Source of the DNA: Prochlorococcus sp. AG-402-C22
GTDB lineage: Bacteria > Cyanobacteriota > Cyanobacteriia > PCC-6307 > Cyanobiaceae
Assembly: GCA_003279535.1 (NCBI GenBank)
Contig: QCHO01000008.1
Coordinates: forward strand, 1-44,662
DNA: 44,662 bases
Direction of reading: 5' to 3'
This document shows, piece after piece, positions 31,671 to 43,571 of the stretch (positions within the stretch are counted from its first letter, which is position 1; every line of letters begins with the position of its first letter). The notes beneath the pieces are model-generated. The model was not told the origin of the DNA. It made no database searches and worked only from the letters and a program-made list of their open reading frames with translations. The position numbers were made by a program, and so were the translations under genes.

Positions 31671-31700
31671 GGTACATTTGTATTAGAGTACATTTGTTTT
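31671..31700 (+). promoter_or_regulatory. Two tandem LexA-box-like sites before lexA
   Basis: GGTACATTTGTATT (31671-31684) and AGTACATTTGTTTT (31687-31700) share the core GTACATTTGT and end right at the lexA ATG. Each matches the cyanobacterial LexA consensus RGTACNNNDGTWCB at all but one position. Tandem sites 16 bp apart suggest autorepression. Binding is inferred. Confidence 0.65.
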
Positions 31701-31701
31701 A

Positions 31702-32319
31702 ATGAAAAGCACCTCTAACTATGATCTTACCGATGCACAAAATGAGCTTTATTCTTGGATAAGGGATTATATGAGAGAGTTTCGACATAGCCCTTCAATA
31801 AGGCAAATGATGCAAGCTATGGGATTAAAATCGCCAGCTCCAATTCAAAGTCGATTAAAGCATTTACAAGAAAAGGGTTTCATTTCATGGCAAGAAGGAA
31901 AAGCTAGAACACTTCAAGTAGTTGATGAGATTCTAGAAGGAGTCCCTATAATGGGTTCTGTGGCCGCTGGAGGTTTAATAGAGACCTTCAATGATACCAA
32001 TGAAAATTTGGATATTACAGATGTATTGAAGAAGAAGAATGTCTTTGCACTTACAGTTAATGGAGATTCAATGATTGATGCATGTATTGCAGATGGAGAT
32101 ATGGTTCTGATGGAACCTATTAATGATTCTTTTTCTATAAGAAATGGAGATATAGTAAGCGCCTTAGTTCCTGGTATGGGAACCACGTTAAAATATTTTT
32201 TTAAAAGAGGTGGAAAGATATTTTTGGAAGCAGCTAATTCAAATTATGATCCTATCGAATTAAATTTAAATGAAGTCGTTTTCCAAGGAAAACTTTTAGC
32301 AGTTTGGCGAAAGATTTAG
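31702..32319 (+). CDS. lexA: SOS response repressor LexA
   Basis: DNA-damage repressor that cleaves itself. The N-terminal winged helix (LTDAQNELYSWIRDYMRE, HSPSIRQMMQAMGLKSPAPIQSRLKHL) binds DNA. The cleavage site is A89-G90 in GSVAAGG; catalytic Ser123 lies in NGDSMIDA and Lys164 in GTTLKYF, all present. So this LexA should be capable of self-cleavage, unlike some cyanobacterial LexA proteins that lack the residues. It has 205 residues. Two LexA-box-like repeats precede it. Confidence 0.95.
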   Translation: MKSTSNYDLTDAQNELYSWIRDYMREFRHSPSIRQMMQAMGLKSPAPIQSRLKHLQEKGFISWQEGKARTLQVVDEILEGVPIMGSVAAGGLIETFNDTNENLDITDVLKKKNVFALTVNGDSMIDACIADGDMVLMEPINDSFSIRNGDIVSALVPGMGTTLKYFFKRGGKIFLEAANSNYDPIELNLNEVVFQGKLLAVWRKI

Positions 32320-32328
32320 TAACATAAC

Positions 32329-32360
32329 ATCTATTGATAAATTTCGTCTAATAGATTTTT
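32329..32360 (+). terminator. Weak hairpin terminator after lexA
   Basis: ATCTATT (32329-32335) pairs with AATAGAT (32350-32356) around a 14-nt loop and is followed by TTTTA. AT-rich, so only moderately convincing. It sits between lexA and the convergent methyltransferase gene. Confidence 0.4.
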
Positions 32361-32400
32361 ATATAAAACTTTTTTTTGTTTTTAACATTACGATGAATTT

Positions 32401-33237
32401 TTATTTTCTTGAAAATTCTAATTTCATGTAAGGGATAAAATTTGGAAAGAGTTTAAAGATATTCAATAACCCTAATCCTTTAAGGGCAATCGCTATAATT
32501 CCAATTGATTTTTGTCTTTTTCTAAATTCTGTGTCATTAATGATTCTATTGACCATAAAATCAAGGATTAATAGATGATCTATGATTTTTAAATTTTTAC
32601 TATACTTTGAATTTTTTAAGTGATTAATAATTTCCCTTTTTTTTACAAAGTTCAGTGAATCCCACAAACCAAGGCAATCATTTTTGTTTTCAAAAATTCT
32701 TATTAATTTTTTAAATATTTTATATGTAATGTTCTTGTTAAAAATAACTGGAATTCTAAAATGACTTTCATATGGAAAACCGTAATTTGGGCATAAAACT
32801 ATAAGTTTTCCATTTTCGTTTAATAAAAAACTTATCTTTTCCAAAAAGTTCCTCCAATCATTGAGATGTTCAAAAACATTTATGCAAAATATTAAATCAT
32901 ATTTGTTATCAGGAGATAATTCTTCATATCCAATATTTTTAATAGAAACTCCATTCTCTCTTGATAAAGAGTTTAAATGATTTAGAGAACTGAATCCCTG
33001 TCCAAAAGGTTCTATTCCTTCGAAAATTATATCTTTGAAATTTTCAGATAATAAATTTAAAAGAATTCCACTCCCTGAACCAATCTCCAAAACTTTATTA
33101 TTCCCTTCAAGTTTTTTACAATACTCTTTGATATGATGAAAACCAAATAATGCTTCATTAATCCAAATATCACTATTTTTAATTTTTAATGATCGCAATT
33201 TTTTTAAAAATATCGAATTATCGTTTTTAATATTCAT
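32401..33237 (-). CDS. Class I SAM-dependent methyltransferase
   Basis: Soluble 278-residue methyltransferase. SAM motif I is VLEIGSGSG (49-57), an acidic GIEPFGQG follows for the ribose, and YDLIFCINVFEHLNDW is the post-I motif of the UbiG-like group. The C-terminal part, with no named motif, should set substrate choice. Its place at the edge of a glycosyltransferase block suggests sugar or lipid methylation; this is inference. AT-rich base use matches the following genes rather than lexA. It is the first gene of the variable region and reads away from the island's glycosyltransferase at 33524. Confidence 0.85.
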   Translation of the reverse strand: MNIKNDNSIFLKKLRSLKIKNSDIWINEALFGFHHIKEYCKKLEGNNKVLEIGSGSGILLNLLSENFKDIIFEGIEPFGQGFSSLNHLNSLSRENGVSIKNIGYEELSPDNKYDLIFCINVFEHLNDWRNFLEKISFLLNENGKLIVLCPNYGFPYESHFRIPVIFNKNITYKIFKKLIRIFENKNDCLGLWDSLNFVKKREIINHLKNSKYSKNLKIIDHLLILDFMVNRIINDTEFRKRQKSIGIIAIALKGLGLLNIFKLFPNFIPYMKLEFSRK

Positions 33238-33523
33238 TCTTGATAGAAGTTAAGTGAATATTATCTTACCTAAGAAATAAATTTATATTATTTTAAATTA
33301 CCTTTTTTAAATCTGTTAAATTTAACAGATTTAAAAATATTGATATGTTTGCATATTTTTTTTTAATAAAAAAACTTAATTTTTAAAAAAATATTATTCT
33401 CTTTATAGAATTAATAATTTTGAAAAAGTAATAATTTATTTAAAAGTTCATATATACAATTTCTATTTTGATAATCGTATGTTATGTTTCCAAAATGATT
33501 TATCTTAGTGTTTGATTAAATGA
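33238..33523. other. AT-rich divergent spacer
   Basis: A 286-bp non-coding stretch between two divergently transcribed genes. It contains long A and T runs and the 34-bp perfect palindrome listed separately. I see no ORF, tRNA or clear promoter beyond general -10-like AT sequences. Confidence 0.6.
33304..33337. repeat. 34-bp perfect palindrome
   Basis: The half-site TTTTTAAATCTGTTAAA (33304-33320) is followed directly by its exact reverse complement (33321-33337), with no loop. It lies mid-way in the divergent spacer. The stem ends in A rather than T on both strands, so it does not look like a usual terminator. An operator or a recombination or cruciform site is possible. Confidence 0.85.
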
Positions 33524-34471
33524 ATGATTGAGAGAAAATTGATTTCTTGGATAATTCCTTGTTTTAACGAAGAAGAAGTAATAATAAAATCGTTAAACGA
33601 AATTGTTAAAGTCTCTGCTTCAATTACAAATTATCAATGGGAGTTGGTAATTATTGATGACGGAAGTATAGATAAAACATCAGAATTAATTAAAGAATTT
33701 ACAAATAATAAATTTGATATTCATTTGATTCAATTTTCTAGGAATTTTGGTCATCAAAACGCTGTACAGGCAGGTTTAGATTATTGTAAAGGGGTTGCAG
33801 CTATAATAATTGATGCCGATTTGCAAGATCCTCCTTATCTTGCAGAAAAGATGATTAATAAGTGGGAAAATGGTTTCCAAGTGGTTTATGGCAAAAGAGT
33901 TCAAAGAATAGCTGAAAATAAATTTAAAATATTTACAGCTTTTTTATTTTATAGATTACTTAACTTTCTATCAGGGATTCCAATTCCCAACGATACAGGT
34001 GACTTTAGATTAATTGATAGAGAGGTAATTGATGTCCTTAATTCTATGCCTGAGAAAGGACGCTTTATTAGAGGATTAATATCTTGGATAGGATTTCGTC
34101 AGACTTCAATCAAATATAGGCGAAATAAAAGAGCTGCTGGATTAACAAAATATTCTTTAAGAAAGATGATTAGTTTGGCATTAGAGGGACTCACAAATTT
34201 TTCAAGAAGGCCCCTTAGACTCGCTACATTTTTAGGATTCTTCTTTTCTATATTTGCATTTTTAGGAATAATTTATGTCTTATACGTAAGGCTATTTACA
34301 TTAACTTGGGTTCCAGGTTGGGCAGCTATTTTATTAGCAATTCTTTTATCTAGTGGTATTCAGATGATTTGCATTGGTATTCTGGGAGAATATATTGGTA
34401 ACATATTTTTTGAATCTAAGAATAGACCTTTATATGTTTTGTCAAGTAGAGAATTAATTGTTCATAAGTAA
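33524..34471 (+). CDS. GtrB/ArnC-like family 2 glycosyltransferase
   Basis: Membrane glycosyltransferase expected to load a sugar on the lipid carrier undecaprenyl phosphate. The GT2 domain includes SWIIPCFNEEEV, VIIDDGSIDKTSE, SRNFGHQNAVQAGLDYC and IIDADLQDPP (catalytic DXD-type region near residue 97). Two C-terminal helices follow (about 235-257 and 266-290) as in GtrB and DPM1-type enzymes. It has 315 residues. The next gene, a DUF2079 protein, starts 6 bp downstream, so they form a pair. GtrA lies nearby on the other strand. The sugar cannot be inferred. Confidence 0.9.
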   Translation: MIERKLISWIIPCFNEEEVIIKSLNEIVKVSASITNYQWELVIIDDGSIDKTSELIKEFTNNKFDIHLIQFSRNFGHQNAVQAGLDYCKGVAAIIIDADLQDPPYLAEKMINKWENGFQVVYGKRVQRIAENKFKIFTAFLFYRLLNFLSGIPIPNDTGDFRLIDREVIDVLNSMPEKGRFIRGLISWIGFRQTSIKYRRNKRAAGLTKYSLRKMISLALEGLTNFSRRPLRLATFLGFFFSIFAFLGIIYVLYVRLFTLTWVPGWAAILLAILLSSGIQMICIGILGEYIGNIFFESKNRPLYVLSSRELIVHK

Positions 34472-34477
34472 ATAATA

Positions 34478-35896
34478 ATGAATTTATTATTTTCCAACTT
34501 AACTAGAGAATTAAAAAAAAATAAATCCTTTAGATTTGTTTGTTCAATATCTTTTGTTTTTGGAATTATTTTTTGGGCACTTTCTTTTACTAGGCATTTA
34601 CTTCTACAAAGTAACGCTTATGACTTAGGACTTTTCGATCAATGGATTTGGTTAGCAAGTAAAGGTGAAGAACCATACTCATCTATGACTGGTTTGCATC
34701 TATTTGCCGATCATGGAGCATGGACACTTTATATCGCATCATTTGTATATAAGATTTTTCCAAGTATTCATATTTTACTTTTATCTCAATCTTTTTCACT
34801 TTGTCTTACTTCAATACCACTATGGTTTTTGTGTAAAGCAAAAGAAATAAATAATAGAAATTCAGTTTTAATAATTTTATGTTGGCTTTTTCAACCTGTA
34901 GTTTTCAATATTAATCTTTTCGATTTTCATCCTGAAGTATGGGCTATGCCAATATTGGTTTTATATTACTTATTTGAGAAAGAAAAGAAATTTTCTTTAT
35001 GCTTATTAATATCTTTTTTTATACTTGGAACTAGAGATGGACTTGTTTTATTAGTATTTGGAATTGGTATTGAACAATTTCTCAAGAAAAGATTTTGGTT
35101 TTCTTTTGGACTATTTTTTACATCCACTGCATGGTTTATTTTTTTAAATAATTTTGCCTATCCTGCTCTAAATGGTGATAAAGGAACTGTTATGGCACTA
35201 AGTAGATATCAGGCATATGGTTCTAATTTTTCTGAAATTATTTTAAATATATTAATTCGACCAAATTTACTGATATCGAATATAGATTGGGAGGGAAGCT
35301 TATTTTATTTATTTATTTTATTTTTACCAGTTTTATTTTTTTTAAGAAGGATAAGTTTTCAAACTCTAGCGGTTTCTCTTCCTCTTTTAGTAACAAATAT
35401 CCTTTCAGATTCTAGTGCTCAAAGAGACTTGGTTCATCAATATAGTTTGCCAATATCTTTAGTAATTATAATTTCTTTAATTAACGGTTTTCAAAAAAAT
35501 AATCATTACTTTAGATACTATTTCAGATTATTTTGGATTCTACTTTGCTGGAGTGCATTAGCAAAACCTTGGTTTTTTACTGGACCCTACCTAGATAGGA
35601 TGCAAATGATAAAATCATCTAACGAAGCCTTTGCGATGATTAATAAAAAGGCAAATGTAATAACTACAAGTTATTTTGTACCCCATTTGTCTCAGAGAAA
35701 GCTTATTAAATTCCCCAATAATGAAAATCAACTAGTTGGTGATTTTAAAAAATATGAGATTCTTTTGCTTAATCCGCAAGACCCAGGATGGGGATCTTCT
35801 GGGATGATTCAGAACTATTATTTAGAATCTGCAAAAGAGCAAGGTTGGAAATGTAAAGTCTGGCAAAACGGTCAAGAGTTTTGTAGAAAAAGATAA
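34478..35896 (+). CDS. DUF2079 polytopic membrane protein, possible GT-C glycosyltransferase
   Basis: A 472-residue membrane protein with about 10-11 hydrophobic helices. It fits DUF2079, which belongs to the GT-C type of lipid-linked-sugar transferases. After the first helix the external loop holds NAYDLGLFDQWIW (residues 46-58), where GT-C enzymes keep acidic catalytic residues, and further GLHLFADHG and FDFHPEVWAMP. The C-terminal 80 residues are soluble. It is 6 bp after the GtrB-like gene. GT-C activity is an inference from family and context. Confidence 0.8.
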   Translation: MNLLFSNLTRELKKNKSFRFVCSISFVFGIIFWALSFTRHLLLQSNAYDLGLFDQWIWLASKGEEPYSSMTGLHLFADHGAWTLYIASFVYKIFPSIHILLLSQSFSLCLTSIPLWFLCKAKEINNRNSVLIILCWLFQPVVFNINLFDFHPEVWAMPILVLYYLFEKEKKFSLCLLISFFILGTRDGLVLLVFGIGIEQFLKKRFWFSFGLFFTSTAWFIFLNNFAYPALNGDKGTVMALSRYQAYGSNFSEIILNILIRPNLLISNIDWEGSLFYLFILFLPVLFFLRRISFQTLAVSLPLLVTNILSDSSAQRDLVHQYSLPISLVIIISLINGFQKNNHYFRYYFRLFWILLCWSALAKPWFFTGPYLDRMQMIKSSNEAFAMINKKANVITTSYFVPHLSQRKLIKFPNNENQLVGDFKKYEILLLNPQDPGWGSSGMIQNYYLESAKEQGWKCKVWQNGQEFCRKR

Positions 35897-36345: not shown

Positions 36346-36493
36346 TAATAGATTTTTATTTAGAAAATTATTCTCAATTTAATTATAACTAATAATAAAA
36401 TTGCAATTTCATTAATTCAAATTTTATAAATAGATTAGTTTGCTAAAATTAAATAAGGATTCAAAATGAGATAGTCAAAAAAGGATCTTTTTT

Positions 36494-36566
36494 GGGGCCA
36501 TAGCTCAGCTGGTAGAGCACCTGCATGGCATGCAGGGGGCCAGCGGTTCGAGTCCGCTTGGCTCCA
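36494..36566 (+). tRNA. tRNA-Ala (GGC anticodon)
   Basis: A full 73-nt cloverleaf. Acceptor GGGGCCA pairs with TGGCTCC and has the G3-U70 pair that marks alanine. D-arm region TAGCTCAGCTGGTAGAGCA; anticodon stem CCTGC/GCAGG with loop ATGGCAT, anticodon GGC; T-arm with GGTTCGAGTCC. The discriminator base is A. CCA is not encoded. It sits among the surface-polysaccharide genes, a common landing place for islands. Confidence 0.97.
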
Positions 36567-36638
36567 TTTAATTTTTATTTATATCATTTTCTTTGAAGGT
36601 TGCTTTAATTTATTTGATTAATCATTAATAAAAATTTA

Positions 36639-42647: not shown

Positions 42648-43571
42648 CTATTTTAAATCGCATAGATAATCTATCATTTGTCCATTTATAGAATTAACTT
42701 TATCAAATTTTTCAAAATCCTCATCTAGCCATACTTTTTCATAAAAATCCCTCTTATTCTTAAAAATTGTTTTTTGGGATTCATAGTATTTTGCTCTGGA
42801 GATTGGCCCCTTTAAACTTTCCCTTAAATCTTCTATTTCTTCTACCTGCTCTATTGGGCTTCTATTATCATTCCAATAGAAAACCTTTGGCAGAATTTTA
42901 TTACCTTCATCCATTAAAGTAGCTGATAAATATCTTTCTATTATGAATGGAAATAATTTATAAGTTTTTTTATAAGACTTATTAAAACTATACTCAAATG
43001 GCGATCTATGAAAAGTTTCCTTTAAACCTAAATTATTCTCTGTCATTAGATCATCAAGACTGATCATATTGTTGACTATTTTTATAAAGTATTCACTTTT
43101 GGCAGCCCAAAAATTACAGAAAGAAAATTGGTCTTTTGGAGTTCTTGATTGAAAATCAATAGTAGGGAAGCTCTTGTTTAATGAAAATATTTCTTTTACT
43201 TCTTTTCTTATCCCTTTATGACATATCTCTGCTTGATCCCAGTAATTATAAAATATTAAAGAATTATATTGACATGGAGAAAATATAAAAATATCGGCAT
43301 CGTTTTCTTTTATCAATTTGCAAACAGATTGATAATTTAAACCAGTTCTTTCTATAAAAGATGCGCTAAATAAGCCAATTATATTGTTTTCATTTTCTTG
43401 TGATTTTGATACTAAATTATATATAGTTTTATATATCTGAAATTCTCTTTTCCATGGATGTTTATTTTCAAAGATGCAAGGTATAAGTTCTAAATCATTT
43501 ATTAATAATTGCTTAGTATCATAAACACCATAAAATAAAAATAAATCCTTATTTATTTCTGATGAAACCAT
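42648..43571 (-). CDS. Unrecognised polysaccharide-region protein
   Basis: A 307-residue soluble protein, no signal peptide. I do not recognise a defined family. Visible features: FLFYGVYD start, IIGLFSASFIERTG, a patterned DADIFIFSPCQY followed by NYWDQAEICH, NFWAAKSEYFIKIVNN and FPFIIERYLSATLMDEG. The last two patterns recall proteins that accompany or are fused to glycosyltransferases in capsule clusters, but this is only an impression. Codon use is like that of its glycosyltransferase neighbours. A role in surface glycan assembly is inferred from context alone. Confidence 0.65.
   Translation of the reverse strand: MVSSEINKDLFLFYGVYDTKQLLINDLELIPCIFENKHPWKREFQIYKTIYNLVSKSQENENNIIGLFSASFIERTGLNYQSVCKLIKENDADIFIFSPCQYNSLIFYNYWDQAEICHKGIRKEVKEIFSLNKSFPTIDFQSRTPKDQFSFCNFWAAKSEYFIKIVNNMISLDDLMTENNLGLKETFHRSPFEYSFNKSYKKTYKLFPFIIERYLSATLMDEGNKILPKVFYWNDNRSPIEQVEEIEDLRESLKGPISRAKYYESQKTIFKNKRDFYEKVWLDEDFEKFDKVNSINGQMIDYLCDLK

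Follow-up and report, generated by a model that had tools for sequence, protein, structure and literature searches.

A perfect, apparently strain-specific 34-bp palindrome between two divergent genes near the start of a Prochlorococcus glycan island

Examination of a 44,662-nucleotide stretch of the genome of Prochlorococcus sp. AG-402-C22 (contig QCHO01000008.1, here called the window) revealed a perfect palindrome of 34 bp at positions 33304-33337, TTTTTAAATCTGTTAAATTTAACAGATTTAAAAA, in which two 17-bp arms, TTTTTAAATCTGTTAAA and TTTAACAGATTTAAAAA, meet with no loop between them. The palindrome is a genuine, rare and apparently strain-specific sequence of a known kind, for which we found no evidence of function, and is probably an inverted repeat with no dedicated function. 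It is most likely the by-product of a copying slip rather than a conserved control element. The explanation we prefer, and put forward tentatively, is that polymerase template switching created or perfected the inverted repeat within an unconserved spacer. The repeat had been reported in the original prediction as an exact, loopless inverse repeat of this length between divergent genes, and its sequence, coordinates and symmetry all proved correct.

Setting, symmetry and length of the palindrome

The genes upstream of the island are of the ftsH, argF and lexA types. The palindrome separates the first and second island genes, approximately 1 kb beyond lexA (Table 1). Past the glycosyltransferase, the island further encodes DUF2079 and GtrA proteins, several glycosyltransferase-like proteins, an FkbM methyltransferase and a tRNA-Ala. 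On the Pfam content of these genes the earlier name of surface-glycan region is a fair one, and the palindrome does lie near the start of a variable island. Over the part present, the window's FtsH shares 98.1-99.8% identity with FtsH of the 15 relatives inspected. Four genomes of the genus (G283, G067, G163 and G008) have loci with a 1-kb stretch identical to one in Prochlorococcus records such as MIT 9314 and AG-676-L21, and both results place the genus as Prochlorococcus. The tRNA-Ala gene (GGC) lies within the island at window positions 36493-36567 and also occurs in the stretches following lexA in 11 of these 15 relatives; its distance and orientation vary among the 11, and it is a possible anchor of the island.

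Table 1. Positions in the window of the palindrome, its spacer and the neighboring genes
Feature	Position	Strand	Remark
lexA, final gene ahead of the island	31702..32319	+	
SAM-dependent methyltransferase (Methyltransf_23), first island gene past lexA	32401..33237	-	
Divergent spacer, 286 bp	33238..33523		short AT-rich matches only; no full-length relative in 265 other genomes of the genus
Promoter-like match TTAACA-18-TAAAAT	33290..33319	-	consensus match only; first hexamer within the palindrome
Palindrome, loopless, perfect, 34 bp	33304..33337		one copy in own genome
Left arm, TTTTTAAATCTGTTAAA	33304..33320	+	at up to 1 mismatch, only the two arms in own genome
Right arm, reverse complement of the left arm	33321..33337	-	
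Promoter-like match TTAACA-16-TATGTT	33322..33349	+	consensus match only; first hexamer within the palindrome
Family-2 glycosyltransferase	33524..34471	+	
DUF2079 membrane protein, glycan island	34478..35896	+	

As single-stranded DNA the palindrome can form a hairpin of 15 bp closed by a loop of 4 nt (-11.6 kcal/mol). Folded as RNA, the two strands gave -14.8 and -14.0 kcal/mol, with z values of -5.05 and -5.33.

The palindrome is 88% A+T and is composed of TTAAA-like pieces, and this composition is what would favor its being a chance product of AT-rich DNA, noticed because very many windows were scanned. We consider such an origin quite improbable in view of the length of the arms. The second-longest loopless arm within the window is 10 bp, and 10 bp is also the next longest in 443,563 bases of the same genome (the window and 20 further stretches). 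Across 76 stretches totaling 1,497,866 bases, no other loopless palindrome had arms longer than 11 bp, and in 96 stretches of DNA from the genus (1,855,516 bases) the next loopless arms reached only 12 bp, in four instances. Simulated DNA of the overall composition had maximal loopless arms of 13 bp (order 2, 3 Mb) and 12 bp (order 5, 3 Mb). With the composition of the spacers the maxima were 14 bp (order 1) and 15 bp (order 3) in 6 Mb each. Extrapolating by hand, with a roughly 3-fold drop for each additional pair, we expect about 1e-3 chance palindromes of such length per genome. The earlier claim that the palindrome exceeds what is common by chance thus holds with respect to composition. 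Perfect reverse-complement arms beyond chance are what is expected of a template-switch product.

The genome itself is a draft of 46 contigs and is 81% complete, and a repeat of this kind might in principle have arisen during assembly or amplification, for example through an inverted chimera formed during multiple displacement amplification. In one study of data of this type, to judge from the accessible part of its text, chimeras made up 6.19% of read pairs and inverted ones formed more easily (PMC4595205). However, the overlaps given there for chimeras were mostly 5-8 nt, compared to the 17 bp found here, and the flanking ORFs are both open. An artefact is therefore very unlikely.

Copies, related spacers and gene order

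The full 34-mer has a single exact occurrence in the genome, and no second place in it matched the 22-bp core with up to 3 mismatches. A 24-bp core was present in only 1 of 60 genomes, this being the genome of the window, and was not found among genome_contigs or viral_contigs, collections which may omit records near the window's own genome. The 20-bp core with up to 3 mismatches was matched in 138 of 266 genomes, by eye and without summing no more commonly than its reversed control. The half-site with up to 1 mismatch was matched in 134 of the 266, by eye somewhat more commonly than the reversed control. The count of half-site copies that had been proposed earlier yielded, in the genome of the window, the two arms of the palindrome alone; elsewhere, the 11 exact half-sites among the matches listed all fall at one orthologous coding position. 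No match to the palindrome region was found in phage records. In Rfam no family was found, the sole hit (E 0.97) reaching 21.3 bits where the gathering cut-off is 50.

The spacer as a whole had no full-length relative in the 266 genomes, where short AT-rich matches were all that was found. One segment of 36 bases, 33377-33412, resembled at approximately 90% the 3'-terminal part of a gene conserved in many relatives, presumably hemF. We judged this match to be due to chance and rejected the segment as a remnant of a gene end, since its 53.6 bits were no better than AT-rich matches elsewhere in the query (54.5, 50.0 and several of 49.1).

LexA was identified at E <1e-40 in 94 of 121 genomes, including that of the window, and the region following lexA was compared in 15 of the 93 others. 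In none of the 15 are the genes after lexA arranged as they are in the window. Comparison of the spacer with these 15 stretches gave short AT-rich pieces only, plus the methyltransferase gene itself in the genome designated G008. The nearest sampled relative by LexA (G092, 96%) carries other genes at the locus. The original prediction had proposed to judge the palindrome both by further genomic copies and by its state in close relatives that share its gene order. On the first part, no other genomic copies were found; for the second, there were no relatives of the same order among the genomes searched.

At the thresholds used, the methyltransferase was found in 6 and the glycosyltransferase in 19 of the 266 genomes, the window's own included in each count, and three other genomes carry both. 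In the G008 island the relatives of the two flanking genes (55% and 29%) are present but in tandem, in G036 both are on the same strand approximately 1.7 kb apart, and in G067 they are on separate contigs, so that the divergent pair is absent from all three. In three genomes, methyltransferase relatives sit after an argJ gene (one of the three argJ genes named by NCBIfam). More distant methyltransferase relatives come from Alteromonas and from the MAG of an alphaproteobacterium, a distribution that would suit a gene passing from genus to genus. No glycosyltransferase relatives were found in the viral contigs.

The content of the island in all 15 inspected relatives is unlike that in the window, and a palindrome close to its beginning might also mark a mobile-element scar or attachment site, formed from joined terminal inverted repeats or as a recombination site at the island border. 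Such an origin is extremely unlikely. By eye, no target-site duplication was seen in the flanks, and no further copy of the arm occurs in the genome at up to 1 mismatch. Nor did the 15 stretches following lexA contain a notable match to the spacer, and the phage records gave no match. The features by which terminal repeats of insertion sequences and MITEs are recognized, a target-site duplication and further copies, were thus not found, and the earlier suggestion of a trace of recombination at the island edge gained no support.

Divergent promoters and an operator

The position of the palindrome in a divergent spacer of 286 bp would suit an operator, and the original prediction had named one acting in both directions. 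According to this explanation, a dimeric or tetrameric regulator would bind the palindrome, occlude the -35 elements of both promoters and so control both divergent genes. TTAACA-type hexamers resembling -35 elements do lie within the palindrome on both strands, and a regulator gene, lexA, lies at a distance of 1 kb, but the box type known for it is a different one. Three of the four non-terminator intergenic hairpins in the survey with arms of at least 14 bp are in divergent spacers, too few to decide the matter. When arms of at least 12 bp are taken, the proportion is 3 of 11, and divergent spacers make up 30% of spacer bases; a preference of long dyads for divergent spacers was accordingly rejected. 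The promoter-like matches in the region number 13, compared to 10.8 (sd 3.7) in shuffled sequence, which is no excess.

The only regulator family among the scanned neighboring genes is that of lexA, and a Pfam scan of the island ORFs gave no regulator family, one ORF (42648-43571) matching nothing. Dimeric operators usually need less than 34 bp of perfect symmetry. An operator is further expected to recur at other promoters, or to be conserved ahead of the flanking genes' relatives. The genome has no other site, and over the 500 bases that precede 5 methyltransferase and 19 glycosyltransferase relatives, loopless arms longer than 7 bp were absent except for one of 12 bp, in G124. With no second copy in the genome and no full-length relative of the spacer in 266 genomes, the proposal of an operator for both directions was not borne out, and we consider it unlikely. 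A further reading makes the palindrome a dedicated switch, working through a novel regulator or by cruciform extrusion, that links the divergent gene pair opening the surface-glycan island and thereby helps to set the cell-surface type of this strain; this strikes us as less probable still.

The G124 exception speaks mildly against the palindrome of the window being the sole one of its kind. Examination of that genome also revealed, upstream of the glycosyltransferase relative and between tandem island genes, an AT-rich (93%) hairpin with perfect 17-bp arms and a 6-nt loop (L224:9957-9996), which is unrelated to the palindrome of the window. The loopless palindrome with 12-bp arms is separate from this hairpin and lies 20 bases ahead of it.

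Dyads in other spacers and comparison with known systems

Two other long dyads of the survey that are not terminators also lie in divergent spacers, one between eno and clp in the genome of the window and one between rpe and glpX in G078. The gene names are those of NCBIfam, clp denoting a Clp-type ATPase that scored below the ClpB cut-off. For each spacer the best 30 loci were aligned, out of 97 matching genomes for eno/clp and 109 for rpe/glpX.

In the genome of the window the eno/clp dyad (L067:11131-11169; relatives L267-L295) is paired at 15 of 15 positions, compared to 10 of 15 in G092 when both are read without gaps in one register. The two genomes differ at four places in the 39-bp dyad, by three substitutions and one deletion, and all four changes are towards pairing. 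Within the 262-bp spacer, three columns are unique to the window's genome among it and 29 relatives, and two of these three fall in the dyad. The dyad does not stand out clearly as a hot spot, because the rest of the spacer differs between the same two genomes at 16 of 223 bases, and this slightly lowers our confidence in template switching. Seven of the 29 relatives have an eno/clp dyad that is perfect over 15 bp with other letters, while in the others it is less perfect; the perfect dyads in these seven could reflect selection for the dyad.

The rpe/glpX dyad keeps its outer part and is variable in the middle, with a conservation of 0.928 compared to 0.983 and 0.991 in the surrounding spacer. 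The corresponding G078 hairpin (L202:17931-17959, aligned with L236-L265) lies 41-69 bases before the start of glpX, and its outer arms are kept in most of the 30 aligned genomes. It may serve as a leader or an operator.

Dyads of this sort can thus change their pairing from one relative to another, through mutation, selection or both. On this ground an origin by template switching is, tentatively, the best reading for the lone palindrome of the window, and we infer that the process which acted on the eno/clp dyad also made the palindrome, which would have no function. In this view the replicating polymerase would have stalled where the island spacer is AT-rich and in part self-complementary, used its own nascent strand or the opposite one as template for a short while and then returned, which would leave two exactly complementary arms of 17 bp. 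An imperfect ancestral or sister spacer was found neither in the 266 genomes nor beside the methyltransferase relatives.

The palindrome serves mostly as a caution that an eye-catching and statistically real palindrome need not have a function. The eno/clp comparison hints that intergenic dyads of Prochlorococcus can be remade between close relatives, so that perfect symmetry alone is weak evidence of an operator in this genus. The literature collection searched contained no paper joining Prochlorococcus with a perfect palindrome and none treating quasipalindromes and template switching together with cyanobacteria. The accessible portion of a paper on Prochlorococcus genomic islands retrieved with palindrome as a search term (PMC2784084) contains nothing about the palindrome of the window.

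Among known systems, intrinsic terminators of Prochlorococcus resemble the palindrome in having a perfect stem of similar length. However, terminator-like hairpins of the genus consist of an A-run, a G+C segment and a T-run, whereas the palindrome is a T-run followed by an A-run and lies between two gene starts. On either strand the 5' arm carries the T-run and the 3' arm the A-run, with neither a U tail nor a G+C stem, and an intrinsic terminator was accordingly rejected. A terminator search of positions 32300-33600 gave no site, in agreement with the earlier remark that, with no T tail, a terminator is unlikely. Terminator-like hairpins accounted for 7 of 8 in convergent and 4 of 11 in tandem spacers of the survey, and because those in the genus sample have arms of 12-16 bp, the survey would have recognized a terminator here. 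The strong folding of both RNA strands is what might commend a transcribed hairpin, acting as a terminator or leader element. With T and A runs opposite to the terminator layout, no terminator predicted and no Rfam family, a transcribed RNA hairpin is scarcely probable.

The LexA box of cyanobacteria is given as AGTACWNWTGTACT and the SOS box of E. coli as CTG(TA)5CAG in the accessible part of PMC3091678. The lexA gene of the window is preceded at 31671-31684 by GGTACATTTGTATT, which is like the boxes listed for Prochlorococcus. A second, weaker site resembling a LexA box, AGTACATTTGTTTT, also precedes lexA at 31687-31700. The strict consensus RGTACNNNDGTWCB had no match in the window. The palindrome was rejected as a cyanobacterial LexA box, by this consensus or by AGTACWNWTGTACT, for there is no GTAC half-site within it. 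Its core, CTGTTAAATTTAACAG, resembles instead the E. coli SOS box in fitting CTGT-N8-ACAG, with lexA 1 kb distant, unlike the site upstream of the genome's own lexA, which is of the Prochlorococcus type. The pattern CTGT-N8-ACAG had one match in the window compared to 0.10 expected, and four in the genome compared to one for the reversed control. We take the fit of the core to the E. coli-type box to be probably a coincidence.

Template switching can create or perfect arms of the kind seen here, according to the portions available of two studies (PMC7202029, PMC8794818). Unlike the quasipalindrome cases in the accessible parts of these papers, the palindrome of the window comes with no imperfect ancestor among the sequences searched, and for that reason we infer the event itself. 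Its likeness to the quasipalindrome-associated template-switch mutations described there lies in its arms, which are perfect reverse complements such as a single event can produce.
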